A stretch of DNA of 64,000 nt from Persicirhabdus sediminis (GTDB lineage Bacteria; Verrucomicrobiota; Verrucomicrobiia; Verrucomicrobiales; Akkermansiaceae), in assembly GCF_016595495.1 (NCBI RefSeq), contig NZ_JAENIM010000044.1:62001-126000 (forward strand), in the 5' to 3' direction. The translations under genes were made by a program, and so were the position numbers. The notes under the pieces are model-generated. The model ran no database searches, was not told the origin of the DNA, and worked only from the letters and a program-made list of their open reading frames with translations. The stretch's first letter is position 1. The number at the start of each line of letters is the position of its first letter. Shown here piece after piece: positions 5,530 to 52,504 of the stretch.

Positions 5530-7602
5530 ATGTTTTTCCTTAGGGTTTCGCGCCTTTTTGCACTTTTTACACTAATCATCTGTATTTGCTTACCGGCCCA
5601 GCACTGTGCCGCCGCTTCGGTGGAGGATCTCAGTTATACAAGCACGGGCGATTCGATCACGATTACTGGCTGCTCCACAAGCGCTGCTGGTGAGTTGGTT
5701 ATCCCAGATACGATTGACGGCTTGCCTGTAACTGAGATTGCGGAGAAGGCATTTTATTGGTGCAACTCACTCACTAGCATCAACATCCCAGACACGGTCA
5801 CCTCTATTGGATACAGCGCTTTCTATAACTGCTCTAGCTTAGTCCAAATGGAATTCTTGGGTAACGCGCCAAGCGTCACAGTCTGGCTATTTGGTTACTC
5901 GTACTACAAGGACCTCATCATCAAGTACAAGGCCGAATACTACGAGGCCTTCCAACAAGTTCCGTGGAACCTCTATCAATCTGAGATCTATCATCCAGAT
6001 CTTACTTACTCTCTCAACAGCGATGGCAGCAGTGCGATTCTAACTTATTGCAGTAACAGCGCAACGGGCTTCATCCCGATTTCTCCCCTTTACCAAGGCG
6101 TCCCCGTCACTGTTATTGGTGAAAATGCCTTCATTGGCTGTAGTTCAATAGCAAATATCAGTATTCCCGAGTCGGTCACTTCCATTGAAGACGGAGCTTT
6201 CTCTGGCTGTTCTAGCATCGAATCGGTTACGTTTTTAGGTGATGCTCCAAGTGTCATGAGCGATCCATTTGGCTCTACCACCAATGAGAATCTCATCATC
6301 AAATACAAGGCTGAATACTACGAAGTCTTCCAGCAAGTTCCTTGGAACGTCTATCCAGCTGAAATAATCCATCATCCAGACCTTACTTATACGCTGAGCA
6401 GCGATGGCAACAGCGCGATTCTGACTGCTTGCAGCAGCAGCGTATCCGGCTCCATTCATATCTCTCCCTTTTACCAAGGTGTGCCGGTCACAGCTATTGG
6501 TGATAATGCCTTCCTAGATTGTAGCTCATTAACTAGTATCAACATTCCAGAATCGGTCAGCTCTGTTGGTGACAGTGCTTTCAAAAACTGTAAAGTCCTC
6601 ACCTTCATCAAGCTGCCAGACACAGTCACCTCCATTGGAGGCTTTGCTTTCTGGGGATGCAGAGCATTGGCTAGCGTCAACATCCCTGACACCGTCACTT
6701 CCATCGAAGACTGCACTTTCGTGCTCTGTCAATCACTCACCAGCATCACTATTCCAGACTCGATCACGTTCATAGGAAAAGATGCATTTGGGGGCTGTAC
6801 CGCATTAACCAGCATCAACATCCCGGACTCGGTTACTTTCATAGAAAGCCGTGCTTTCTATGGGTGTATGTCGCTCACCAATATCAGCCTACCTAACTCC
6901 ATCACTTCCATTGAAAACTCTACGTTCGCTGACTGCCTAGCACTGATCAACATCAACATCCCTGGCTCGGTCACTTCCATTGAAAGCTATGCTTTTGAGG
7001 ACTGTACCTCATTGGCCAGTATTAATATTCCTCGATCCGTCAGTTATATGAATACCGCGGTATTTAGAAACTGCAGTTCACTCACCAGCGTCTACTTCCT
7101 TGGTAATGCCCCTGAAGCAGGTATGGTAATATTTTCCGACTGCGAACAAGTTACCAGCTACATCCTGGCCGACAGTACAGGCTTCACAACGCCCAACTGG
7201 CAATTTCGTCCTGTCGTTGTTATTGGCACTGAGGAGTTACTGGCTGACAGCTGGCTGCAGCTCCATGGCAGAGCACCGCATGTCGATTTATCACTAGATG
7301 ATACTGGCGATGGTGTGAGCCTGTTGATGGCTCGCGCGCTGAACCTTAGGCCAGATGAAAATCTGGCTGGAAAAATGCCCAAGCCGCAAATCTATGACGG
7401 TTCACTTGGCCTGATGTTTCATGGCCAAAGCAAAGGCGTGGATTACCTGGTGGAAAGCAGCAGTGACTTAGTCAACTGGAGCTCGCAAAACGTCAACCTA
7501 TCTGAGCCCGACGCCGACGGCATGCGCGTGGCTGAAGCGTCCACTGAGGGCGAGGAAAAGCTGTTCATTAGGCTCACGGTAAATGCTAGCGAGCTGGATT
7601 GA
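5530..7602 (+). CDS. Secreted BspA-type leucine-rich-repeat protein
   Basis: A 690-aa protein. Residues 1-29 are a signal peptide ending ...QHCAAA. Residues of about 55-560 are BspA/LRR_5-type repeats of about 23 aa with the pattern 'LTSINIPDSVTSIGxxAFxxC', interrupted twice by a longer insert (DLTYTLSSDGNSAILT...). The last 115 residues contain DYLVESSSDLVNWS and match, with only a few substitutions, the C-terminus of the inverted paralogue at 31751-34789. LRR_5 proteins are usually surface or secreted adhesins or binding proteins; the ligand is unknown. The shared C-terminal module may be a sorting or surface-anchoring domain (inference). The gene sits between repeat arrays and has its own promoter, which fits a cassette that moves or duplicates with the repeats. 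Confidence 0.9.
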   Translation: MFFLRVSRLFALFTLIICICLPAQHCAAASVEDLSYTSTGDSITITGCSTSAAGELVIPDTIDGLPVTEIAEKAFYWCNSLTSINIPDTVTSIGYSAFYNCSSLVQMEFLGNAPSVTVWLFGYSYYKDLIIKYKAEYYEAFQQVPWNLYQSEIYHPDLTYSLNSDGSSAILTYCSNSATGFIPISPLYQGVPVTVIGENAFIGCSSIANISIPESVTSIEDGAFSGCSSIESVTFLGDAPSVMSDPFGSTTNENLIIKYKAEYYEVFQQVPWNVYPAEIIHHPDLTYTLSSDGNSAILTACSSSVSGSIHISPFYQGVPVTAIGDNAFLDCSSLTSINIPESVSSVGDSAFKNCKVLTFIKLPDTVTSIGGFAFWGCRALASVNIPDTVTSIEDCTFVLCQSLTSITIPDSITFIGKDAFGGCTALTSINIPDSVTFIESRAFYGCMSLTNISLPNSITSIENSTFADCLALININIPGSVTSIESYAFEDCTSLASINIPRSVSYMNTAVFRNCSSLTSVYFLGNAPEAGMVIFSDCEQVTSYILADSTGFTTPNWQFRPVVVIGTEELLADSWLQLHGRAPHVDLSLDDTGDGVSLLMARALNLRPDENLAGKMPKPQIYDGSLGLMFHGQSKGVDYLVESSSDLVNWSSQNVNLSEPDADGMRVAEASTEGEEKLFIRLTVNASELD

Positions 7603-8359: not shown

Positions 8360-9089
8360 GCTGGCTACAATGTTGAACCTATGTGATGATCTTTGACACT
8401 TCTGATGCCGCTCGTAGGCAAAAGCGGTGAAGGATCACCGCAGTCCGAAAGCCTTCGGCAGAGCTACGGAGCTAGCTGGTTTTCATCAGTCTGGAATTCA
8501 CACCTCTCTCTTCACCCTTCACTCTTCAATGGCTGGTTTTCATCAGTCTGGAATTCACACCTCTCTCTTCACCCTTCACTCTTCAATGGCTGGTTTTCAT
8601 CAGTCTGGAATTCACACTTCTCTCCTCACCCTTCACTCTTCAATGGCTGGTTTTCATCGGTCTGGAATTCACCCTTCTCTCCTCACCATTCACTCTTCAA
8701 CGGGCTGGGGCTATGTTGAGTCTATGCGATGATCTTTGAAATTTCTGATACTGCTCGTAGGCAAAAGCGGTGAAGGATCACCGCAGTCCGAAAGCCTTCG
8801 GCAGAGCTGCGGAGCTAGCTGGGTTTCATCAGTTTGGAATTCACCCTTCTCTCTTCGCTCTTCAATGGCTGGGTTTCATCGGTCTGGAATTCACCACTCT
8901 CACCTCACCCTTCTCTCTTCAATGGCAGGGGCTATGTTGAACCTATGTGATGATCTTTGAAACTTCTGATGCGGCTCGTAGGCAAAAGCGGTGAAGGATC
9001 ACCGCAGTCCGAAAGCCTTCGGCAGAGCTGCGAAGCTAGCTGGTTTTCATCAGTCTGGAATTCACACTTCTCTCTTCACCCTTCACCCT
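8360..9089 (+). repeat. Array of repeat family B ending at the rlmD stop codon
   Basis: Three B units, with first hairpins at 8424-8441, 8767-8784 and 8988-9005. The first unit carries four exact-period 57-bp repeats starting at 8476, 8533, 8590 and 8647. The array ends with 'cttcacccttcaa'. Its final TCA (9090-9092) is the stop codon of the gene on the opposite strand. Confidence 0.9.
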
Positions 9090-10352
9090 TCAACCCTGAA
9101 GGGGTTCCGCTTCTCCTTTGCTGAGTACGGAGATGCACTCGAGGTGGCGGGTTTGTGGGAAGAGGTCGAATGGTTGGACTTCTTCGAGTTTGTAGCCAGC
9201 TTCGAGGAAATGGTTGAGGTCGCGCATTTGGGTGGCTGGGTTGCAGGAAACGTAGACCACTTTGGATGGGCCGAAGGCGAAGAGTTGGTCGAGGAATTCC
9301 TGGTTGCAGCCTTTGCGCGGTGGATCGATGACAACGGCGGTTTCGTCGCCAGGGAAGGTGATGTCGGCAAAGATGGCCTCGGCGCTGGAGGCGAGGAATT
9401 TGGCGTTGGTGATGCCATTGAGTTTGGCATTTTTGGTGGCGAAATCGACCGCGGTTTCGGACACTTCTACGCCAGCTACTTGTTCGAAGTTTTTCGCTAG
9501 GCAGAGGGCGAAGAGGCCGGAGCCGGAGTAGGCGTCGACGAGGAATTTGGCACCGCCAGCTGAGGCTTGGCGAGCGACGTAGTCGGTAAATGCTGGTAGG
9601 ATGAACGGGTTGTTCTGGAAGAAATCACCAGCTAGGAAATGGAATTTGAGATCGCCAACGGACTCGCTGATAGGCGTGCGGGTATTGGTTTCTACGCGGC
9701 CTTCAGTAACGCGCAGGAGTACCTGTGCGTTCTTTTTGTATTTGGCGGCATTGGCGCGGATTTCAGCGCGAATTTGTGGCAGCGCGTCGTTGATTTCCTG
9801 CATGGCGATGGGGCAGTTTTCGACGTCAACAAGGTGCTGGCGAGTGCCTGGGCGCAGGAAGCCAATTTCTTCAATCTTGCCATTACGCGGGCGGCCAAAG
9901 TGAGGTGTGAGCTTGGAGCGGTAGTTCCATTCTTGTGGTGATGGATGCGCTGGCTCGACGTCAAACTCGATACCAACCATGTGCTTGAGCAGCTCTTGCA
10001 CTTGCTGGGTTTTCCACTCGAGCTGTTTGTCGTAGCTGAGGTTTTGGTATTGGCAGCCGCCGCAGGTACCAAAGAGTGGGCACTTGGGGTCGACGCGCTC
10101 AGGTGATGGCTCAAGGATTTTTACCAGATCTCCCTGGCTGCAGTTTTTGTCGTTGCGGTAGATGCGCACGAGCACTTTTTCACCCGGCAGTGTGGAGGGG
10201 ACAAAAACGACCCACCCTTGATGTTCGGCGTCCACGTCGATGCGGCCAATGCCCTGACCTAGATTGCTCAAGGCATGGATGGTGAGCTCGATTTCTTGAT
10301 GGTATTCAAAGGGAACGGGTTTGAACTTTTTGGATGGACGTGGCTGGCTCAT
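9090..10352 (-). CDS. rlmD: 23S rRNA (uracil-5-)-methyltransferase, RlmD/TrmA family
   Basis: A 420-aa enzyme that transfers a methyl group from SAM to C5 of uridine in 23S rRNA. Residues of about 15-75 form a TRAM-like RNA-binding domain (ELTIHALSNLGQGIGRID...VFVPSTLPGEKVLVRIY). KCPLFGTCGGCQYQ supplies three iron-sulfur ligands and DVENCPI a fourth. The methyltransferase domain shows LVDAYSGSGLFALCLA, VVIDPPRKGCN and the catalytic cysteine in VVYVSCNPATQMRDL. I start at the ATG (10352) rather than the in-frame TTG two codons upstream. RlmD is preferred over TrmA because of the TRAM and Fe-S motif; RlmCD-type activity cannot be excluded. The stop codon abuts the 57-bp repeat array. Confidence 0.9.
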   Translation of the reverse strand: MSQPRPSKKFKPVPFEYHQEIELTIHALSNLGQGIGRIDVDAEHQGWVVFVPSTLPGEKVLVRIYRNDKNCSQGDLVKILEPSPERVDPKCPLFGTCGGCQYQNLSYDKQLEWKTQQVQELLKHMVGIEFDVEPAHPSPQEWNYRSKLTPHFGRPRNGKIEEIGFLRPGTRQHLVDVENCPIAMQEINDALPQIRAEIRANAAKYKKNAQVLLRVTEGRVETNTRTPISESVGDLKFHFLAGDFFQNNPFILPAFTDYVARQASAGGAKFLVDAYSGSGLFALCLAKNFEQVAGVEVSETAVDFATKNAKLNGITNAKFLASSAEAIFADITFPGDETAVVIDPPRKGCNQEFLDQLFAFGPSKVVYVSCNPATQMRDLNHFLEAGYKLEEVQPFDLFPQTRHLECISVLSKGEAEPLQG

Positions 10353-31750: not shown

Positions 31751-34700
31751 TCAATCCAGCTCGCTAGCATATACCGTGAGCCTAATAAAAAGCTTTTCCT
31801 CGCCCTCAGTGGACGCTTCAGCCATGCGCATGCCGTCGGCGTCGGGCTCAGATAGGTTGACGTTTTGCGAGCTCCAGTTGACTAAGTCACTGCTGCTTTC
31901 CACCAGGTAATCCACGCCTTTGCTTTGGCCATGAAACATCAGGCCAAGTGAACCGTCATAGATTTGCGGCTTGGGCATTTTCCCAGCTAGATTTTCATCT
32001 GGCCTAAGGTTCAGCGCGCGAGCCATCAACAGGCTCACACCATCGCCAGTATCATCGAGTGATAAATCGACATGCGGTGCTCTGCCATGGAGCTGCAGCC
32101 AGCTGTCAGCCGGTAACTGCTCGGTGCCAATAACAACGACAGGACGATATTGCCAGCTAGGCGTTGTGAAGCCTGTACTGTCGGCCAGAATGTAGCTGGT
32201 AACTTGGTTGCTGTTCTGGAATATCGTAGAACTCGCTGCAGGGGCATCACCGAGGAAGTAGATGCTGGAGAGAGAGATGCAACCAGAGAATGCATAGCTG
32301 TCAATGTAAGTGACCGAGTTAGGGATGTTGATACTGGAGAGAGAGATGCAGTTATAGAAAACATAGTATCCAATAGAAGTGACCGAGTCAGGGATGTTGA
32401 CACTGGTGAGTGAACTGCAGCCATAGAACATAGACCTTGCTATAGAGGTGAATGAGCTTGGGATAGTTATATTCCTAAGTGAGCTGCAGAACGAGAAAGC
32501 TGAGGAACCAATGGAAGTGACCGAGTTAGGAATGTTGACACTGGTGAGTGAACTGCAGTTATAGAAAACATAGTTGCCAATAGAAGTGACCGAGTCTGGA
32601 ATGTTGATACTGGTGAGTGAACTGCAGTTATAGAACGTATAGTCTTCAATGGTCGTGATCGAGTCTGGAATGTTGACACTGGTGAGTGAACTGCAGTTAT
32701 AGAAAACATAGTTGCCAATAGAAGTGACCGAGTCAGGGATGCTGACACAGGTGAGCAAACTGCAACCATAGAAAGCCCTATTACCAATAGAAGTGACCGC
32801 CTTAGGGATGATGACACTGGTGAGTGAACTGCAGTTATAGAACGTATAGTCTTCAATGGTCGTGACCGACTCTGGGATGTTGATACTGGTGAGTGTACTA
32901 CAACCACAGAATGCCCTATCACCAATGGAAGTGACAGTGTCTGGGATACTAATGATTGTTAGTGAGCTGCAGTTATAGAAAGTGTAGGATTCGATGGAAG
33001 TGACCGCTTCTGGAAGAATGATAGTAGTCAGTGATTCGCAGTTTTCGAAAGCACTGTCACCAATGGAAGTGATCGAGTCTGGAATGTTGACCTCGCTGAG
33101 TAAGCTGCAGCTAGCGAAGGCACTGTCACCAATGGCTGTGACCGGCACACCTAGGTAAAAAGAGGAGATATGAATAGAGCCGGATACGCTGCTGCTACAA
33201 GCAGTCAGAATCATGCTGTTGCCATCGCTGCTCAGCGTATAAGTAAGATCTGGATGATCGTCTAGGTCAGCTGGGTAGAGGCTCCATGGAGCTAGCTGGA
33301 AGGAATGGTAGTATTCATGCTGATAGCTGATGGTGAGCTTCTCGTTGACGGTGAAATCAAATAGATCCCCCGTCACACTTGGGGCATTACCTAAAAAGCT
33401 AAGCTGGACTAAGCTAGAGCAGCCGAAGAAAGCCCCTTCTCCTATGGAAGCGACCGCGGCTGAAATAGTGAGATCACCGAGTGATTTACAGCCATAAAAG
33501 GCATAGCTGCCAATGCTGGTGGCTGAGGCTGGGATGTTGATCTCACTGAGTGCAGAGCACTGCCAGAAAGTATAATTGCCAATAGAAGTGACCGAGTCGG
33601 GAATATTCAGGTTGATGAGTGAGTCACAGCGGAAGAATGCATAGTCACCAATGAAGGTGACCGTGTCTGGGATGCTGATATGGCTAAGTGAGCTGCAGCC
33701 AAGAAAAGCGTATTCGCCAATGGCGGTGACGGGCACACCGTTATAGCTTGGTGAAATGAGAATGGAGCCCGATGCGCTGTTACTGCAATGAGTTAGAATC
33801 GCACTGTTGCCATCGTCACTGAGTGTATAGCTAAGAGCTGGATTATAAATTTCAGCTAGATAGCGATTCCACGGTGAGCTCTGGAATGCCGCCGCGTATT
33901 CTACCTGGTATTTAATGATGAGATTCTCATTGGTGATAGTGCCAAATGGATCATTCTTCACACTCGGCGCTTCACCTAAAAACGTAATCCAAGCCAAACT
34001 CGAGCAGCCGTCAAAAGCCTTGTCACCAATGAAGGTCACCGATGCATGAATAGTGATATTAGTGAGTGAGCTACAGCTTTCGAAAGCATAGTCTCCAATA
34101 GAAGTGACGGAGTCAGGAATAGTGATGCTAGTGAGTGAGCTACAGCCACTGAAAGCGCCCCGCCCAAGAGAGGTGACGGAGTCAGGAATAGTGATATTAG
34201 TGAGTGAGCTGCAGCCACAGAAAGCATCAACTCCAATGGAAGTTACGGAGTGAGGAATAGTGATATTAGTTAGTGAGCTGCAGTTAAGGAAAGTAGCGTA
34301 TCCAAGAGAGGTGACGGAGTCAGGGATAGTGATTTTGGTCAGTGAACTGCATCCGAAAAAAGTAGATTCTGCAATAGAAGTGATGGAGGCAGAGAGCTTG
34401 ACGCTAGTGAGTGAGCTGCATTCCCAGAAAGCGTATTGCCCAATCGAGTGGACTGAGTCTGGAATGATTATGTTAGATAGAGAGAAGCAGTTACTGAATG
34501 CATAATCTCCAATAAAGACGACCGAATCTGGGATTTCTATGCTGGTTAGTGAGTCGCGCCAATCAAATGCACCATCCGCAATCTCGGTTACTGGCAAGCC
34601 GTCAATCGTACCAGGGATAACCAACTCACCAGCAGCGCTTGTGGAACAGCCAGTAATCGTGATCGAATAGCCCGTGCTTGTATAACTGAGATCCTCCACT

Positions 34701-34789
34701 GAAGCGGCGGCACAGTGCTGGGCCGGTAAGCAAATACAGATGATTAGTGTAAAAAGTGCACAAAGGCGCGAAGTCCTAAGGAAAAACAT
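31751..34789 (-). CDS. Secreted BspA-type leucine-rich-repeat protein (long paralogue)
   Basis: A 1012-aa paralogue of the LRR protein at 5530-7602 on the opposite strand. The signal peptide is nearly identical. About 35 LRR_5 repeats of about 23 aa (SLTSVNIPDSVTSIGNYVFYNC type) fall in three blocks separated by the same longer inserts (YTLSDDGNSAILTHC...). The last 115 residues differ from the paralogue at only a few positions (for example GMRMAEAS versus GMRVAEAS). The near-identity of both ends, against divergent repeat numbers in the middle, suggests recent duplication or gene conversion with repeat expansion and contraction. It is probably a secreted or surface binding protein; the ligand is unknown. 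Confidence 0.9.
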   Translation of the reverse strand: MFFLRTSRLCALFTLIICICLPAQHCAAASVEDLSYTSTGYSITITGCSTSAAGELVIPGTIDGLPVTEIADGAFDWRDSLTSIEIPDSVVFIGDYAFSNCFSLSNIIIPDSVHSIGQYAFWECSSLTSVKLSASITSIAESTFFGCSSLTKITIPDSVTSLGYATFLNCSSLTNITIPHSVTSIGVDAFCGCSSLTNITIPDSVTSLGRGAFSGCSSLTSITIPDSVTSIGDYAFESCSSLTNITIHASVTFIGDKAFDGCSSLAWITFLGEAPSVKNDPFGTITNENLIIKYQVEYAAAFQSSPWNRYLAEIYNPALSYTLSDDGNSAILTHCSNSASGSILISPSYNGVPVTAIGEYAFLGCSSLSHISIPDTVTFIGDYAFFRCDSLINLNIPDSVTSIGNYTFWQCSALSEINIPASATSIGSYAFYGCKSLGDLTISAAVASIGEGAFFGCSSLVQLSFLGNAPSVTGDLFDFTVNEKLTISYQHEYYHSFQLAPWSLYPADLDDHPDLTYTLSSDGNSMILTACSSSVSGSIHISSFYLGVPVTAIGDSAFASCSLLSEVNIPDSITSIGDSAFENCESLTTIILPEAVTSIESYTFYNCSSLTIISIPDTVTSIGDRAFCGCSTLTSINIPESVTTIEDYTFYNCSSLTSVIIPKAVTSIGNRAFYGCSLLTCVSIPDSVTSIGNYVFYNCSSLTSVNIPDSITTIEDYTFYNCSSLTSINIPDSVTSIGNYVFYNCSSLTSVNIPNSVTSIGSSAFSFCSSLRNITIPSSFTSIARSMFYGCSSLTSVNIPDSVTSIGYYVFYNCISLSSINIPNSVTYIDSYAFSGCISLSSIYFLGDAPAASSTIFQNSNQVTSYILADSTGFTTPSWQYRPVVVIGTEQLPADSWLQLHGRAPHVDLSLDDTGDGVSLLMARALNLRPDENLAGKMPKPQIYDGSLGLMFHGQSKGVDYLVESSSDLVNWSSQNVNLSEPDADGMRMAEASTEGEEKLFIRLTVYASELD

Positions 34790-44259: not shown

Positions 44260-47200
44260 ATGTCTGCTTCACGTAACTTCACCCTTTTTCTCAGCCTTGT
44301 GCTGACAGCTTGCGTGGTGGCTGAGCCCATTCAGTCATCATGGTTTACTCATTTGTCTGGCCAGTACGCCAGAGTTTATCCTACGACGGTGGAGGAAAAT
44401 GCCAACTCTCCAGCCACAACTTGGGACCACCCGACGGGAGCTGACCAGTTGGTGCCGACCTATGCAGGGGTGAGTGAAGTTTCACTGACAGCTACGGATC
44501 TGTACATCCGCACATCGGGTTTGGCCTTTCATGTGATGGGGCCGTGGTATGGGGAAAATGGTGGCTTATTTCCTAACTATCCGGCGAACATTGCTCAGAC
44601 AGCTAGATTTCCGCTAGATCCGCAGGTGGCGGCTTTGCCGAAGTCTCTAACTACAGGCGGCGCGGTTGGCTACTTTGTTGATGGGGTGGCAATGTTTGAT
44701 GCTCGGGATGCGTTTTCTTACATCAATGAGAGCGGCCGCGATGCGACTCCAGCAGATGTGCCTATCCGTGGTGATGGCATGTGGAACCGCGATGCTTACG
44801 TAAACGAATCGGTGACCTTTGATGCGGCTAATGCCCATCAAGCGGGCGCCACCCACCACTATCACGCTAATCCAACAGGACTGCGGTATTTGCTCAGTGA
44901 CTCGGTCGACTACGACTATGCTAGCAATACTTATAGCGAGAATGCTTACGGAACTCATTCACCGATTCTGGCGTGGACATTTGATGGGTTTCCGCTGTAC
45001 GGGCCATACGGGTATGCTGATCCGCTAGATCCTGATAGTGGCATTCGGCGGATGATTTCTGGCTTCCAAAAACGTGATGGTACAAATGGCTCTAGCAACT
45101 TGAATACAACGGGGCGAAGCTCACTGCCACAGTGGGTAGTAGATAATCAGAATGACCGCAGCAACCCTCTAGCAGCTGAAGAATACGGCCCCGCGGTGAC
45201 TAATGTGTATACCCTCGGTCACTACATCGAGGATTATGCCTACAAGGGTGACCTCGGGCTAACGCTTGGGGTGGATTTTGACCTCAACGAATACAATGTG
45301 CGCTGGTGCGTGACGCCAGAATTTCCAGCGGGAACGTGGGCGTATTTCTGTTGTATCGAGGCCGATGGCACACCGGCATTTCCGTATAATATTGGCCGCT
45401 TTTTCTTTGGTGAAGTGCAGGGAGCAAATGGTGTTAATTTGCCAGCTGATAGAGAAATTATCTTTGAAGGTGGCCCGGAAGCTGAGCTGAAAATGGAAAC
45501 TCCAACAGTGGATAGTGATAGTGGCGATGTGACTATCAGCTGGTCAGGGCCAGAGGGGGGCAGCTACATCGTCCAGCGGAGCGCAGACCTAGATGAGTGG
45601 CAGCTGCACCATGATGATGTGAAAAATAATGCCGGCTCATTTGGATCTATAGACGATGAAGGGCGAGCTCAGGGCGGGCCCCAGCAGTTTTACCGCAGCC
45701 AGCTAACTAGCCTAGCTCCCTTTGACGACAACGGCTTCGACTACAGTCAGCCGGTTGTGGCTGATTTCACAGCTCACTTTGACTCGCTGCCAGCTGAGGA
45801 GAAAATCGAAAGTGTGACGATTGGCAATGTGGCGGTTACTATCCTCAGCTATGATGCCGTTAGTGGCTCACTTGAGCTGACTTTTGATGAATCCTCATTG
45901 GCGGCTGGAGATTACCAAATTGCACTAACTTATCTGCCTGATAGCGGAACTCCTAGCGGACTAACGTCTACCAATGTTCATACGATTCACCCGCCACATA
46001 ATATTTTGCTGCTGATTGTCGACGACTGGGGTGTGGATTCTAGCCCGATGGACAATAACGCTCAGCTGAACCCGAGTGCGACTTTCCCGCCCATGCCTAA
46101 CCTTGAGACATTGGCTGCGCGTGGGCTCAGATTTACTAATGCCTACGCACAGCCAATCTGCTCACCCACTCGTGCGTCTATCCTAACGGGGCGTCAGGCC
46201 GCGCGTCATGGCGTAGGCACCGCAGGAGGTGCTCTGCCAGCTAGTGAGCTCACTCTACCAGAAATATTTGCCGCTGAAGGTTCACCGTACCAGCTGGCTA
46301 GCTACGGCAAATGGCACCTCGGTGGTGGCGTCAATGGCCCCGCTGAGATTGGTGGCTGGCCAGAGTTTGCCGGCATCCTCAATGGCGGTGTGAGCAGCTA
46401 TACCAGCTGGAACAAAACCGAAAATGGCATTTCCACTAACAACTACACAACCTACTCGACTACGGATCAGGTGAATGAAGCGATCGACTTTATTTCTGGC
46501 CAATCAGCAAACCCATGGTTTGTCTGGATGGCGTTTAATGCGCCGCACACACCATTTCACAATCCGCCCAGCGAGCTGCATGATTACCCCACATTACCAG
46601 AAGATGAAAATGGCGAGGTGACTGGCGCCAATCGCCGTCAGGCCTACGAGGCGGCGCTGCAGGCATTAGATACAGAAATTGGCAGGTTGTTAGCCAATGT
46701 CGATCTGGAGACGACCAATGTTATTTTGATTGGCGACAACGGCACACCGGGCGCCGTGGTTCAGGCTCCTTATGGTGAGGGACACGCTAAAGGCAGCCTC
46801 TATCAGGGAGGCATCCATGTGCCTTGCATCATCGCGGGCCCTGATGTTCGTTTCAGCGGAATGAGTCATAAGTTAGTCCATTGTGTGGATCTATTTTCCA
46901 CCATTCTGGATTTGGCAAAAATTGATGTTAGTACGGCAACGGCGGCTGTAGACGTGATCGACTCACAGAGCCTAGTGCCCGTGCTCAAAGGGCAAGATAT
47001 CGCCCAGCGCAGCATTGTTTCAGCTATCTTTGCAGATGATTTCGCCAACAGCGGTCGCACTCTAATTAGCTCGGAATACCCAGGCTATGAATTGATCGCT
47101 TACGGTGACCCTAGCAGCCTAGCTACAGCCAGCTCTTACGAGATGTACTACCTGCCAGCTGATACTAACGAACAGATGCCTCTCTCACTGCCGCCAGCTA

Positions 47201-47553
47201 GCGGAGATCACCATTTTGCCGCCTATCATGCGCTGGTGGCTAAAGATGCAGCTCTGCGGCCAGCCGCAGTAGTTGGCGATACACTTTACCTCGAGCTGCC
47301 CAATGTGACTGGCGGTGCAGGGGTGCCGAATAATGCCAACCTAGATCCTATCAGCATCACGGTGAATGGCGTGGCTGCTAGCTATATCGAGCGCTACGAC
47401 CAGACTGATACTTACAACCGCTGGTGGGTGAAGTGCACGGTGCCAGATACGCTATCAGCACCATATACCTCTGCCGTAGTCACCTTTAGTGATAACCCAA
47501 ATACCGGTGATGCTCGGGTGTTTTCCGCAAGCTCTATCATCATAGCACCCTAA
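44260..47553 (+). CDS. YHYH-domain/sulfatase fusion protein
   Basis: A 1097-aa secreted protein with a signal peptide (FTLFLSLVLTACVVAEP). Residues of about 110-390 are a YHYH domain: ATHHYHANPTGLRY near 195-208 and SPILAWTFDGFPLYGPYGY near 235-253. Residues of about 405-490 carry the module GSYIVQRSADLDEWQ...QQFYRSQL, like the C-terminal module of other proteins here. Residues of about 578-900 are a sulfatase: NILLLIVDDWG, formylglycine motif C634-S-P-T-R638, GKWHLGG, WMAFNAPHTPFHNP and LIGDNGTPG. A beta-rich C-terminus follows. YHYH domains are of unknown function and often sit near copper-related genes. The stop overlaps the next start (TAATG), so translation is coupled. A YHYH-sulfatase fusion is unusual. 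Confidence 0.85.
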   Translation: MSASRNFTLFLSLVLTACVVAEPIQSSWFTHLSGQYARVYPTTVEENANSPATTWDHPTGADQLVPTYAGVSEVSLTATDLYIRTSGLAFHVMGPWYGENGGLFPNYPANIAQTARFPLDPQVAALPKSLTTGGAVGYFVDGVAMFDARDAFSYINESGRDATPADVPIRGDGMWNRDAYVNESVTFDAANAHQAGATHHYHANPTGLRYLLSDSVDYDYASNTYSENAYGTHSPILAWTFDGFPLYGPYGYADPLDPDSGIRRMISGFQKRDGTNGSSNLNTTGRSSLPQWVVDNQNDRSNPLAAEEYGPAVTNVYTLGHYIEDYAYKGDLGLTLGVDFDLNEYNVRWCVTPEFPAGTWAYFCCIEADGTPAFPYNIGRFFFGEVQGANGVNLPADREIIFEGGPEAELKMETPTVDSDSGDVTISWSGPEGGSYIVQRSADLDEWQLHHDDVKNNAGSFGSIDDEGRAQGGPQQFYRSQLTSLAPFDDNGFDYSQPVVADFTAHFDSLPAEEKIESVTIGNVAVTILSYDAVSGSLELTFDESSLAAGDYQIALTYLPDSGTPSGLTSTNVHTIHPPHNILLLIVDDWGVDSSPMDNNAQLNPSATFPPMPNLETLAARGLRFTNAYAQPICSPTRASILTGRQAARHGVGTAGGALPASELTLPEIFAAEGSPYQLASYGKWHLGGGVNGPAEIGGWPEFAGILNGGVSSYTSWNKTENGISTNNYTTYSTTDQVNEAIDFISGQSANPWFVWMAFNAPHTPFHNPPSELHDYPTLPEDENGEVTGANRRQAYEAALQALDTEIGRLLANVDLETTNVILIGDNGTPGAVVQAPYGEGHAKGSLYQGGIHVPCIIAGPDVRFSGMSHKLVHCVDLFSTILDLAKIDVSTATAAVDVIDSQSLVPVLKGQDIAQRSIVSAIFADDFANSGRTLISSEYPGYELIAYGDPSSLATASSYEMYYLPADTNEQMPLSLPPASGDHHFAAYHALVAKDAALRPAAVVGDTLYLELPNVTGGAGVPNNANLDPISITVNGVAASYIERYDQTDTYNRWWVKCTVPDTLSAPYTSAVVTFSDNPNTGDARVFSASSIIIAP

Positions 47554-49247
47554 TGTATCGATCCGTTATTAGCCTGATTTTTTGTTTTGCTGCAAATCTA
47601 CCAGCAGAGGTGGATTTGCGGTTAAATTTCAGCCATCAGCTTAAGGGGAAAGCACTCATAGCTGATTCATTGCGCTACAAAAATGCGTCTTCTGAAGTCT
47701 ATTCATCCACTCGTCTCAGCTACCTTGTTAGTGGCATTGCATTGCATGCTGAAAATGGACAGATTTATAATGTTAGTGAGTTGGTCGGCTACATCGACGA
47801 TTCCAGTTCACGGCACAGCATCCAGCTAGCAGATGTGCCAGCTGGCAAGTACAGCGCACTGAGTTTTTACATCGGCCTAGACCAGCAGCAGAATCATTCA
47901 AATCCAGCGCTCTATCCGGCGAATCACCCGCTCAACCCTAACCTCAACAACATGCACTGGGATTGGCAGGGGGGATATATCTTCATGGCGCTGGAGGGTC
48001 ATTGCAGGCAGCCGGGGGAAAAGATGCCTACGGGGTACGCCTATCATTTTGCCAATGATGCTAACCGCACGCGAGTCATGCTGGAGGCTGAGATTGATTT
48101 GCAGACCGACTCAGCCGCGCTGATCAGCTTCGATATCGCCAAGCTTCTCTCACAGATTTCATTTGCTGATGACGGAGCAACCACTCACTCGCAGGCGGGT
48201 GATCCAGTGGCTGAGAAAATCCGCGCGGCAATTCCCAGCGCTTTCCAGCTGCAGGCTGTGGCACCAGTTAGGGCCATGCCCAGCCAGCCAGTGGTCGAAG
48301 CGATTGACCTACCAGCGAGCATCACGCCACATCCTATCACCTTGCCCAAGTACATCCCGATTCCCAAATTACCGCTAGATAATCCATTGCTCACTGAGCG
48401 AGTCGAGCTGGGTGAGATGCTCTTTCATGAAACCAAGTTGTCGCGCACTAATGAGCTCTCCTGTGCGTCCTGCCATCAGGGTGAGACTCTATCAGACCCG
48501 CGGCAATTCAGCCCGGGAGTGGATGGCAAGCATAACCAGCGGCACTCTATGCCATTGGTGAATTTGGCCTGGAAGAAATCCTTTTTCTGGGATGGTCGGG
48601 CATCCTCGCTGCGTCTTCAGGCTCTCATGCCGATTGAGGATCATCTTGAAATGGATGAGTCATTAGACAAGGTGGTGGCCAAGCTGGAAAATGATCCAGT
48701 CTATCAAAATCTCTTTGCCGCCGCTTTTGGCTCGGCCGCAATCAGCGCTGAAAACATCGGCCTCGCGATGGAGAATTTTTTACTCACCCAGATGAGTTTT
48801 GATTCTAAGTTTGACCGCGCCAGCAAAGGGCTCGACAAGCTAACAAAAGAAGAACAGCGTGGGTTTGAACTTTTTTTCACTGAGTTTGAGCCACGTCTTG
48901 GAAAGTTTGGCGCTGATTGTTTTCATTGCCATGGCGGTGCCTTGTTCACCGATCATAGTTTTCATAACAACGGACTGACTACTAATGATGACATCGGTCT
49001 AGCAGCGACTACGGGTAAAGCTAGCGACCGCTACAAGTTTTCCACGCCCTCGTTGAGAAATATCTCACTGACCGCGCCCTACATGCACGATGGACGATTT
49101 TCCTCGCTTGAGCAGGTCATCGACCACTACAATAGCCCGATAGAGGCGAGTGCAACATTGGATCCTAATCTGGCCAAACACCCACAAGGGTTGGGTCTAT
49201 CAGCTGAGGATAAAAATGCGCTCATCGCCTTTTTGAAAACTCTCTAA
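47553..49247 (+). CDS. MbnP-like domain fused to MauG/MbnH-type di-haem peroxidase
   Basis: A 564-aa secreted protein. After a short signal, residues of about 20-220 fit the MbnP copper-protein family: RLSYLVSGIALHAENGQ, the motif MHWDWQGGYIFMALEG with Trp136 and Trp138, and AYHFAND. The four-Cys motif of some members is absent. Residues of about 275-564 are a cytochrome c peroxidase/MauG-type di-haem domain with haem sites C304-A-S-C-H308 and C456-F-H-C-H460, plus MPLVNLAWKKSFFWDGRASSLR and STPSLRNISLTAPYMHDGRF. In methanotrophs the separate MbnH oxidises a Trp of MbnP to kynurenine, creating a copper site; here enzyme and target look fused. The start overlaps the upstream stop by one base. 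Confidence 0.87.
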   Translation: MYRSVISLIFCFAANLPAEVDLRLNFSHQLKGKALIADSLRYKNASSEVYSSTRLSYLVSGIALHAENGQIYNVSELVGYIDDSSSRHSIQLADVPAGKYSALSFYIGLDQQQNHSNPALYPANHPLNPNLNNMHWDWQGGYIFMALEGHCRQPGEKMPTGYAYHFANDANRTRVMLEAEIDLQTDSAALISFDIAKLLSQISFADDGATTHSQAGDPVAEKIRAAIPSAFQLQAVAPVRAMPSQPVVEAIDLPASITPHPITLPKYIPIPKLPLDNPLLTERVELGEMLFHETKLSRTNELSCASCHQGETLSDPRQFSPGVDGKHNQRHSMPLVNLAWKKSFFWDGRASSLRLQALMPIEDHLEMDESLDKVVAKLENDPVYQNLFAAAFGSAAISAENIGLAMENFLLTQMSFDSKFDRASKGLDKLTKEEQRGFELFFTEFEPRLGKFGADCFHCHGGALFTDHSFHNNGLTTNDDIGLAATTGKASDRYKFSTPSLRNISLTAPYMHDGRFSSLEQVIDHYNSPIEASATLDPNLAKHPQGLGLSAEDKNALIAFLKTL

Positions 49248-50399: not shown

Positions 50400-50668
50400 T
50401 GGTGAATGGTCGCCACTCCGTGGCTATGCTCTCGAGGGGCGTCTATACCCTAGGCTATGCCAAGGGCTTCGAACGACCGCCACTCCGTGGCTAGCTGGGT
50501 CCATGATTAACCCATGCGCGATGATCTTTGAAACTTCTGATACCACTCGTAGGCGAAAGCGGTGAAGGATCACCGCAGTCCGAAAGCCTTCGGCAGAGCT
50601 GCGGAGCAGGCTGGTGGTATGGGTTCCATCAGTCTGGAACTCACTCTTCACTCTTCACCCTTCTCTCT
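50400..50668 (+). repeat. BspA-flank-like segment and repeat family B unit ending at a stop codon
   Basis: 50400-50500 resembles the 'ggtcgccactc...cgaccgccactccgtggc' flank of the LRR cassettes. 50505-50668 is one B unit with the hairpin at 50559-50576 and one degenerate 57-bp element. It ends 'ctctcttcaaa', whose TCA (50669-50671) is the stop codon of the next gene on the minus strand. Confidence 0.85.
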
Positions 50669-52504
50669 TCAAAGTCTGGTTTGGATGAGCAGGACGAGGC
50701 GCTCGATGGGGGTGAGTTGTTGGCGTTCTTGCTGGAGGGCGACGAGGATGTCTGGGGCGTCGGTGATGATGTTGTCGACGCCGAGGTCGATCATGCGGTG
50801 CATCTGCACGCTTTGGTTGACTGTCCAGACGTGGATTTGTTTGCCGGCGGCTTGGGCGAACTCGATGGTGCTGCGGTCGACTTGGCCGGCGTTGAGGCTG
50901 AGGAAATCGACGGGAGTTTCGGTGATATTGCCGATGGCCTGGGTGACGATGAGCCCGCAAATGAGCTCAGGGAAGGCGGCTTTCATGGCGAGCAGCCCGT
51001 GTTGGTCGAGGCTGGTGATGACGCATTTTTTGGTAAAATCAGTGTGGCGCAGCAGCTGGCCGACGCCTTGGATGAGGCCGTCTCGGTCGGGGCCAAATTT
51101 CAGCTCAATATTGAGCTGGATGTCGTCACCAGCCAGCTGGATGAAGTCGTCTAGGGTGGCGAGCGGCTCGCCTTTGAACTCGCTACTGAACCACGCGCCG
51201 GCGTCTAGCTGGAGGCGTTTTTCGCGGGTGAGATCAGCGACTTGAAGGTTCTCGCCAGTGATGCGTTTGAGGTCGGTATCATGGGTGATGACGAGCTCGC
51301 CGTCGGCGGTGATTTGCACGTCGATTTCGCAGAAATCCGCACCGTGGTCGATGGCTAGCTGGAGAGCGCTGAGGGTATTCTCTGGCGCGTCTATGGAGCT
51401 GCCGCGGTGGGCGGTGACGGCGACGACGTGGGTATCGCTACGGCTCTGGCTGAGCAGCCCGCTGGCTACTGAGCCGCCGATGGCGAGCAGGGCGACGAGG
51501 CCGCCAACGATGATGGTGCGGGCATTGGCGCGTGAGAGGAAACCATTGAGCCGGCAGCTGGACTCGGTCTCGGTGCATTTTTTTCCGCCACTCTGTAGGT
51601 AGAAATGGCTAACGCTGAGGCCGAGTGTGGTGCTGTAGAAGAAGCTGGTGATGGCGCTCCAGATGATCTGGCTGGCGACGAGGACGCCAGTGATGATGAG
51701 GATGAGCTGCAGCGAGCTCGGTCCGTGGTTGAGAAATAGATCGCTAGCTAGGGAGAGGAGGAAATTGACCACACTGAGCAGGGCGGTGGTGAGGGCTGCC
51801 ATGATGAGCACGAGCTTGACGGGCGCGAGGCCGAGCTGGCGTGACCGGCGCAGGCTCTCACGCATGGAGTCTGCGATGGTGAGAGATTCAAATAACAAGA
51901 TGGGCACGGCGAGGAAAGTGCGCAGGAAGAGCCAAATCCACAGCCCCGCCGTGGCGGTTCCAGCTAGGACTACGAGGGCGACGGCTACCCAGAACTCGGG
52001 TGGTTTGACGACGAGGTAGTAGTTGATATCGCGCTCGGCGGTGAGGGTGAGAAATTGGTAACCAGCGGTGGTGAGCAGCGGGATGGCGGCGATGAAGTAT
52101 AACCAGAAATAGACGACGCTGAGCTGGAGCAGTTTGACGAAGCGGGATTTTTCTATCCACAAAACGCGCAGCAAACTGGGGGTGGCCTGGTGGCTCATGG
52201 CTGAGCGGGCGATGATGATGACGCCTGAATGCTCGAAAAATAGGATGGCAAAGGTGAAGCCGATAGACACGGTGAGAAACCCGAGGCCGAGCGGCGAGAG
52301 CAGGAAGTTGGCGATGTCGTAGTTGCTGATGATGCTGTCATTTGCCCGGCCCAGCAGGTAGCTGGTGGAGAAGGCTGCCACCGGCGCTAGCAGGGTGGTG
52401 GCCACGGCGCTGAAGAGTAGCCGGATGAGGATGAACTGGATCAGGTTTTGTTTGAGCCTCAGTGGGTGAGTGATCTGGGCGAGTTCTTGAAGCTGGCGCT
52501 GCAT
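50669..52504 (-). CDS. Glycerophosphodiester phosphodiesterase with N-terminal membrane domain
   Basis: A 611-aa protein. Residues of about 20-330 hold several hydrophobic segments of the membrane domain found upstream of GDPD in some bacteria (LLFSAVATTLLAPVAAF; LLSPLGLGFLTVSIGFTFAI). After one more membrane segment (IIVGGLVALLAIGGSVASGLL), residues of about 360-600 are the GDPD TIM barrel: VTAHRGSSIDAPENTLSAL with the general acid/base His, EIDVQITADGELVITHDTDLKRITG and QLNIELK. It hydrolyses glycerophosphodiesters to glycerol-3-phosphate and an alcohol. A longer frame reaching 52924 only adds translated repeat C. The stop lies in the repeat B end. Confidence 0.88.
   Translation of the reverse strand: MQRQLQELAQITHPLRLKQNLIQFILIRLLFSAVATTLLAPVAAFSTSYLLGRANDSIISNYDIANFLLSPLGLGFLTVSIGFTFAILFFEHSGVIIIARSAMSHQATPSLLRVLWIEKSRFVKLLQLSVVYFWLYFIAAIPLLTTAGYQFLTLTAERDINYYLVVKPPEFWVAVALVVLAGTATAGLWIWLFLRTFLAVPILLFESLTIADSMRESLRRSRQLGLAPVKLVLIMAALTTALLSVVNFLLSLASDLFLNHGPSSLQLILIITGVLVASQIIWSAITSFFYSTTLGLSVSHFYLQSGGKKCTETESSCRLNGFLSRANARTIIVGGLVALLAIGGSVASGLLSQSRSDTHVVAVTAHRGSSIDAPENTLSALQLAIDHGADFCEIDVQITADGELVITHDTDLKRITGENLQVADLTREKRLQLDAGAWFSSEFKGEPLATLDDFIQLAGDDIQLNIELKFGPDRDGLIQGVGQLLRHTDFTKKCVITSLDQHGLLAMKAAFPELICGLIVTQAIGNITETPVDFLSLNAGQVDRSTIEFAQAAGKQIHVWTVNQSVQMHRMIDLGVDNIITDAPDILVALQQERQQLTPIERLVLLIQTRL

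Follow-up and report, generated by a model that had tools for sequence, protein, structure and literature searches.

A secreted YHYH-sulfatase fusion protein of Persicirhabdus sediminis and its overlapping MbnP-MbnH-like partner gene: a possible copper-linked system

Organisation of the YHYH-sulfatase fusion gene

The window analysed here is a stretch of 64,000 nucleotides from Persicirhabdus sediminis, and all features of the locus described below lie on its forward strand. The gene at positions 44260–47553 consists of one unbroken reading frame for a secreted protein of 1097 amino acids, in which both a YHYH and a complete sulfatase domain were detected by Pfam far above the respective cut-offs, as the preliminary description of this DNA had proposed. 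Because about 30 full-length homologues are present in other assemblies from Verrucomicrobiota, a local frameshift, an assembly error or the presence of two separate genes is ruled out. The same homologues establish the architecture as conserved, and the idea that the two domains might always occur separately in relatives was not borne out.

The module boundaries were derived from structure models and alignments. The protein starts with a signal peptide (aa 1–21, positions 44260–44322) with a cleavage site before E22-P23, which was read from the sequence and from the N-termini of the homologues, where the predicted cleavage position has the pattern A-D/E-P. It is followed by a "long" YHYH domain (aa 22–390, 44323–45429), delimited by Pfam, alignments and a model, then by two beta-sandwiches recognised from alignments and the model (aa 399–484, 45454–45711, and aa 500–576, 45757–45987), the sulfatase domain (aa 581–887, 46000–46920), assigned via Pfam and solved relatives, and a modelled C-terminal beta-sandwich (aa 1008–1097, 47281–47550). 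In the model of the full-length protein, the sulfatase and the beta modules were of good quality and the YHYH part was poor (mean 71.7).

The sulfatase domain

The match to the Pfam Sulfatase profile (PF00884) scored 144.2 bits against a cut-off of 25 and covered profile positions 2–300 of 301. The formylglycine motif C634-S-P-T-R638 (46159–46173), which had already been noted, is present as described, and its residues C634, S635, P636 and R638 are invariant in all 28 aligned fusion proteins together with D588, D589, K684, H686, H763, D826 and N827, while K844 is nearly invariant (at least 90% of the 28). Because these residues are intact in 28/28 proteins and the genome codes for a candidate sulfatase maturase of the anaerobic type (TIGR03942, 475 bits), we propose that the domain is an active sulfatase. 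It shares the fold, the CxPxR motif and the metal-binding and catalytic residues with type I sulfatases (PF00884), but differs from them by belonging to a subfamily of its own and by being carried on a YHYH protein. Among solved structures, it comes nearest to the S1_16/S1_19 carrageenan sulfatases and GALNS, whose substrates are carrageenan and host glycans.

The genome contains 74 sulfatase matches and 9 matches to the FGE domain, and the nearest other sulfatase is only 34% identical to the one in the fusion protein. This set of some 70 further sulfatases is in keeping with a polysaccharide degrader. Several of the 9 FGE-domain matches are located within reading frames of 1200–1700 aa. An order-level search suggested that the sulfatase subfamily is exclusive to YHYH proteins, which was refuted by stand-alone members retrieved in the phylum search; these occur without YHYH or MbnP-MbnH, in genomes lacking MbnP.

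The YHYH domain

YHYH is a widespread domain, occurring in bacteria, diatoms, phages and giant viruses. In the window protein, the Pfam profile (PF14240) matched aa 115–367 with 108.5 bits versus a cut-off of 25, and the HHYH motif announced near residue 198 was located at residues 199–202. According to the alignments, H193, H200 and H202 (44836–44865), the latter two forming the HxYH motif, are invariant and probably serve as metal ligands; the pair H200/H202 is unchanged in the 28 aligned fusions, and D188, D242 and D325 are invariant or nearly so. Comparing 41 long and 29 canonical members, we found the HxYH and DGxPxY motifs, the third histidine and the aspartates in both groups, the complete shared set being D188, H193, H200, H202, D242-G, P245, Y247, R286, D325, R348 and Y362. 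Thus, the domain resembles the PF14240 family in its conserved His/Asp set and in matching phage YHYH models. Unlike canonical members, it is longer, carries conserved residues of its own (W96, H233, W292 and C350, with W96, W292 and C350 conserved in the long subfamily and not in canonical YHYH), is tied to MbnP-MbnH genes and is fused to a sulfatase or a multicopper oxidase.

A separate model of the YHYH domain was obtained with high confidence (pLDDT 94.4, pTM 0.92). Searching the PDB with this model yielded no match by Foldseek (best E value of 0.73) and none at Z 2 by VIA-align, and a profile search of the PDB with hmmsearch found no YHYH relative either. Because the same model recovered viral YHYH proteins with an E value of 6e-18, the structure search itself works. 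These PDB searches found no solved relative of the domain, and an absent match is no proof of a new fold.

In the literature searched, we found neither a tested function nor a solved structure of YHYH, and no relevant paper connecting YHYH with copper. The preliminary description had attributed no known enzymatic role to these proteins; there is, however, a published prediction of YHYH as a Zn2+-dependent hydrolase with a 3-His/Asp Zn2+ site (PMC7824862).

The overlapping MbnP-MbnH-like gene

The stop codon of the fusion gene overlaps by 1 bp with a gene at 47553–49247, recognised from its reading frame and from Pfam and NCBIfam profiles, which codes for a protein of 564 aa combining MbnP and MbnH. 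The MbnP domain (aa 21–208, 47613–48176) scored 122.3 bits with PF20243 (cut-off of 27) and contains W136 of the WxW motif, which is conserved in 43/43 fused MbnP-MbnH proteins. The MbnH/MauG-type di-haem domain (aa 274–564, 48372–49244) was identified by profiles and by its two CxxCH haem motifs (C304/C307/H308 and C456/C459/H460), invariant in the same 43 proteins; among solved structures, it is closest to the di-haem enzyme 6e1c, which we take to be MbnH. Because the scores stay under the NCBIfam cut-offs, with 41.4 bits versus 140 for the MbnP equivalog TIGR04052 and 218.3 bits versus 362.85 for the MbnH model TIGR04039, which is still the best-matching one, we classify the gene product on sequence grounds as MbnP-MbnH-like, not as a certified equivalog.

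Reportedly, MbnH converts a tryptophan of MbnP to kynurenine, which is required for copper binding, and both kynurenine formation and copper binding are known for other MbnP members. We know of no clear client protein for MbnP-MbnH pairs located outside of methanobactin operons. The window gene resembles the MbnP-MbnH and CorA-CorB pairs in its PF20243 domain, the MauG-type di-haem domain, the WxW tryptophan and the two CxxCH motifs. It differs from them in coding for one fused polypeptide with scores below the NCBIfam cut-offs, and in lying beside a YHYH gene instead of methanobactin genes. This coupled gene, which is absent from the preliminary description, is the strongest functional clue at the locus. 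The two overlapping genes would be expected to be co-transcribed; scans for promoters and terminators gave signals near chance level.

A further role of the di-haem enzyme would be the modification of the YHYH protein itself, e.g., at a Trp or Tyr residue, with MbnP as one of two substrates. Enzymes of the MbnH type do modify tryptophans of partner proteins, and W96, W292 and C350 are conserved in the long but not the canonical YHYH subfamily, but the WxW-bearing MbnP fused to MbnH is the obvious substrate, and we consider modification of YHYH very unlikely.

Distribution and origin of the fusions

When a single genome was scanned for each species, 35 related loci emerged. Combined with the results of genome searches, the order YHYH-sulfatase was found at about 30 other loci from Opitutia and Verrucomicrobiia, counting repeated contigs once, and two proteins (L075 and L102) showed the reverse order with the sulfatase first. 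At a further locus (L104), a single protein of 2939 aa contains YHYH, cadherin-like domains, a sulfatase and a multicopper oxidase. YHYH and sulfatase domains were thus joined more than once, at least twice in different orders. In the YHYH protein of L035 (5863–8016), an insertion of about 140 residues splits the domain, and at L078 (6951–12034), from a small genome of 1.7 Mb (G108), the YHYH-sulfatase and MbnP-MbnH genes are each in pieces, which may represent frameshifts or joint decay of both partners.

In the sulfatase tree, 20 YHYH-sulfatase proteins formed one clade with a support of 100/99, with a protein containing the FYR module and a sulfatase without YHYH (L155) as its sister and the unfused members outside. 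Therefore, the YHYH-sulfatase order probably arose once. In the YHYH tree, the fused proteins were intermixed with unfused ones, and the window protein grouped with Haloferula-type proteins by its YHYH domain and with Opitutia types by its sulfatase. When the sulfatase data were constrained to the grouping obtained with YHYH, this was rejected (AU test, p = 1.9e-8), as was the sulfatase grouping on the YHYH data (p = 3e-5). This strong conflict between the trees means that domains were exchanged among the fusion proteins after the fusion had occurred.

The first beta-sandwich (aa 399–484) corresponds to the "VQRSADLDEW...FYRSQL" module, which had been described as a C-terminal module of the LRR proteins of the window. 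Indeed, a module of the same type, "VESSSDLVNW...IRLTV", closes the reading frames at 5530–7602 and 31751–34789. These two frames (690 and 1012 aa) lie on opposite strands and share near-identical N- and C-termini, constituting a duplicated pair of surface-protein genes. In most of the unfused relatives, too, the W...FYR module comes after YHYH, and it still stands directly after YHYH in the reversed sulfatase-YHYH proteins. The proposal that an ancestral YHYH protein ending in this module was fused in front of a sulfatase holds insofar as the fusion is genuine and conserved and the module travels with YHYH. The module does not, however, just represent the former C-terminus, since many of the unfused YHYH relatives extend beyond it into a second beta-sandwich, which the short-linker fusions lack.

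Linkage of long YHYH genes to MbnP-MbnH

To assess the association of the two genes, we used 21 long YHYH loci of a phylum sample, which had been found by the YHYH profile alone, regardless of their neighbours. MbnP-MbnH was present in the same stretch at 17 of them (one being a piece at a contig end) and not nearby at the other four. None of 20 loci with canonical short YHYH genes showed MbnP-MbnH within about 5 kb on each side, and several of these genomes contain MbnP-MbnH elsewhere. The exception is a canonical YHYH gene in genome G215 that lies beside MbnP-MbnH in a cluster which also contains a long YHYH gene (L072). Wherever 2.5 kb or more of downstream sequence was available, 34/52 loci are linked, 27 of the 34 with MbnP-MbnH directly downstream on the same strand.

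Among 387 genomes, 22 contain MbnP, all of which also carry YHYH (p = 6.6e-23, ignoring shared ancestry); counted by genus, YHYH occurs in 16/16 MbnP genera (p = 8.9e-15, again ignoring shared ancestry). MbnP is present in 17 of the 20 genomes with long YHYH versus 5 of the 367 others (p = 1.5e-22, shared ancestry likewise ignored). The link to MbnP-MbnH is therefore specific to the long YHYH subfamily within the surveyed Verrucomicrobiota, and it makes long YHYH a candidate client protein for MbnP-MbnH. In Roseibacillus, the fusion genes (L012–L018 apart from L017) never lie beside MbnP-MbnH, and most loci with unfused YHYH genes do.

Copper-related genes at other loci

Long YHYH domains are fused to multicopper oxidases at L076 and L103 and to both a sulfatase and a multicopper oxidase at L104, with the copper motifs HWHG, HPHLH, HSFHIHD and HCHFxxHE intact in all three proteins. 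L103 additionally presents a same-strand run of genes for the YHYH-multicopper oxidase, a CusB-type adaptor with a heavy-metal-binding domain, an unfused sulfatase from the same clade as the fused ones, a CusA-type RND pump and MbnP-MbnH. A gene of the FGE family in this run was considered as a sulfatase activator and dismissed, since the paired active-site cysteines are absent.

MbnP-MbnH genes without a nearby YHYH gene were found at L106, L109 and L111–L114, where the gene that follows either overlaps or directly adjoins them and codes for a protein with a length from about 2000 aa upwards. Both of the proteins that were scanned (L106 and L112) matched Kelch, GO-like_E_set and Glyoxal_oxid_N profiles and contain lectin or PA14 domains; their predicted N-termini resemble galactose and glyoxal oxidases of the copper-radical type. 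This suggests that MbnP-MbnH serves secreted copper oxidases at loci of the L106/L112 type, and hence that it may more generally supply enzymes of this secreted, copper-dependent kind. In Deinococcus, MbnP-MbnH is located together with CopC and CopD, and MbnPH-like genes have been reported within copper operons (PMC9426467). Searches of plasmids returned matches from Deinococcus only. On one of these plasmids (L087, 7803–9879), a canonical YHYH gene is directly followed by a gene of the HupE/UreJ family, which may connect canonical YHYH to metal transport.

Proposed function

We propose that the two genes form an operon for a secreted copper-linked system, in which a metal-binding YHYH domain, the metal probably being copper, is served by MbnP-MbnH and acts together with an active sulfatase; for this reading as a whole we see an even chance. 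The N-terminal YHYH domain would bind the metal, most likely copper, via its conserved His and Asp residues, and the C-terminal type I sulfatase would hydrolyse an extracellular sulfate ester. The MauG-like di-haem MbnH would oxidise the tryptophan of MbnP to kynurenine, creating a copper site, and MbnP would then act as a source, buffer or sink of copper for the YHYH domain. Through the fusion, sulfate removal and YHYH chemistry would be directed to one common target, which is probably a polysaccharide or ligand carrying sulfate groups. We favour copper because of the gene overlap with MbnP-MbnH and their linkage at 17/21 long versus 0/20 canonical loci, the multicopper oxidase fusions, the Cus run of L103, the oxidase-type genes following MbnP-MbnH at L106 and L112, and the CopC/CopD neighbours in Deinococcus. 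Against it we count the published Zn2+ prediction for the same residues (PMC7824862), the 4/21 unlinked loci, the Roseibacillus fusions, the stand-alone sulfatases of the subfamily and the sub-threshold NCBIfam scores of the partner gene. The recurrent association with MbnP-MbnH and with multicopper oxidases, and in a single case with Cus efflux, is the first concrete hint that YHYH may handle copper, and it makes copper binding by YHYH directly testable. A bolder version, according to which long YHYH represents a new class of secreted copper enzymes with a fold absent from the PDB, loaded by MbnP-MbnH and probably acting oxidatively on sulfated glycans processed by the fused sulfatase, seems doubtful to us at present.

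The zinc prediction leads to a different assignment based on the same YHYH residues (PMC7824862), namely a hydrolase that depends on zinc and has glycans or cell walls as its target, with the sulfatase clearing sulfate from the same glycan and MbnP-MbnH as a passenger. It is consistent with the strict or near-strict conservation of H193, H200, H202, D188, D242 and D325, with the sulfated glycans used by the closest solved sulfatase relatives, with the reported lectin and tail-protein links of YHYH (PMC7824862) and with its carbohydrate-recognition context (PMC7029224). However, it leaves unexplained why long and not canonical YHYH is tied to MbnP-MbnH and why multicopper oxidases are fused to it, and we consider it rather improbable.

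Finally, the system may serve copper homeostasis or tolerance instead of substrate breakdown: YHYH and MbnP would bind extracytoplasmic copper, and the sulfatase would desulfate copper-binding surface ligands to release or capture the metal. The L103 run, uniting CusA/CusB, multicopper oxidase, YHYH, sulfatase and MbnP-MbnH, argues for such a role, as do the CopC/CopD neighbours and the copper operons mentioned above. Yet an efflux system occurs at only one locus, no other recognised copper gene adjoins the window locus, and the large oxidase, lectin or PA14 proteins encoded behind other MbnP-MbnH genes suggest secreted enzymes. A purely homeostatic function therefore appears unlikely compared to the copper-linked system proposed above.

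Apart from this locus, two probably spurious reading frames of the window (8991–9500 and 50562–51245) both start with the peptide VKDHRSPKAFGRAA, pointing to a DNA element repeated about 41 kb apart.
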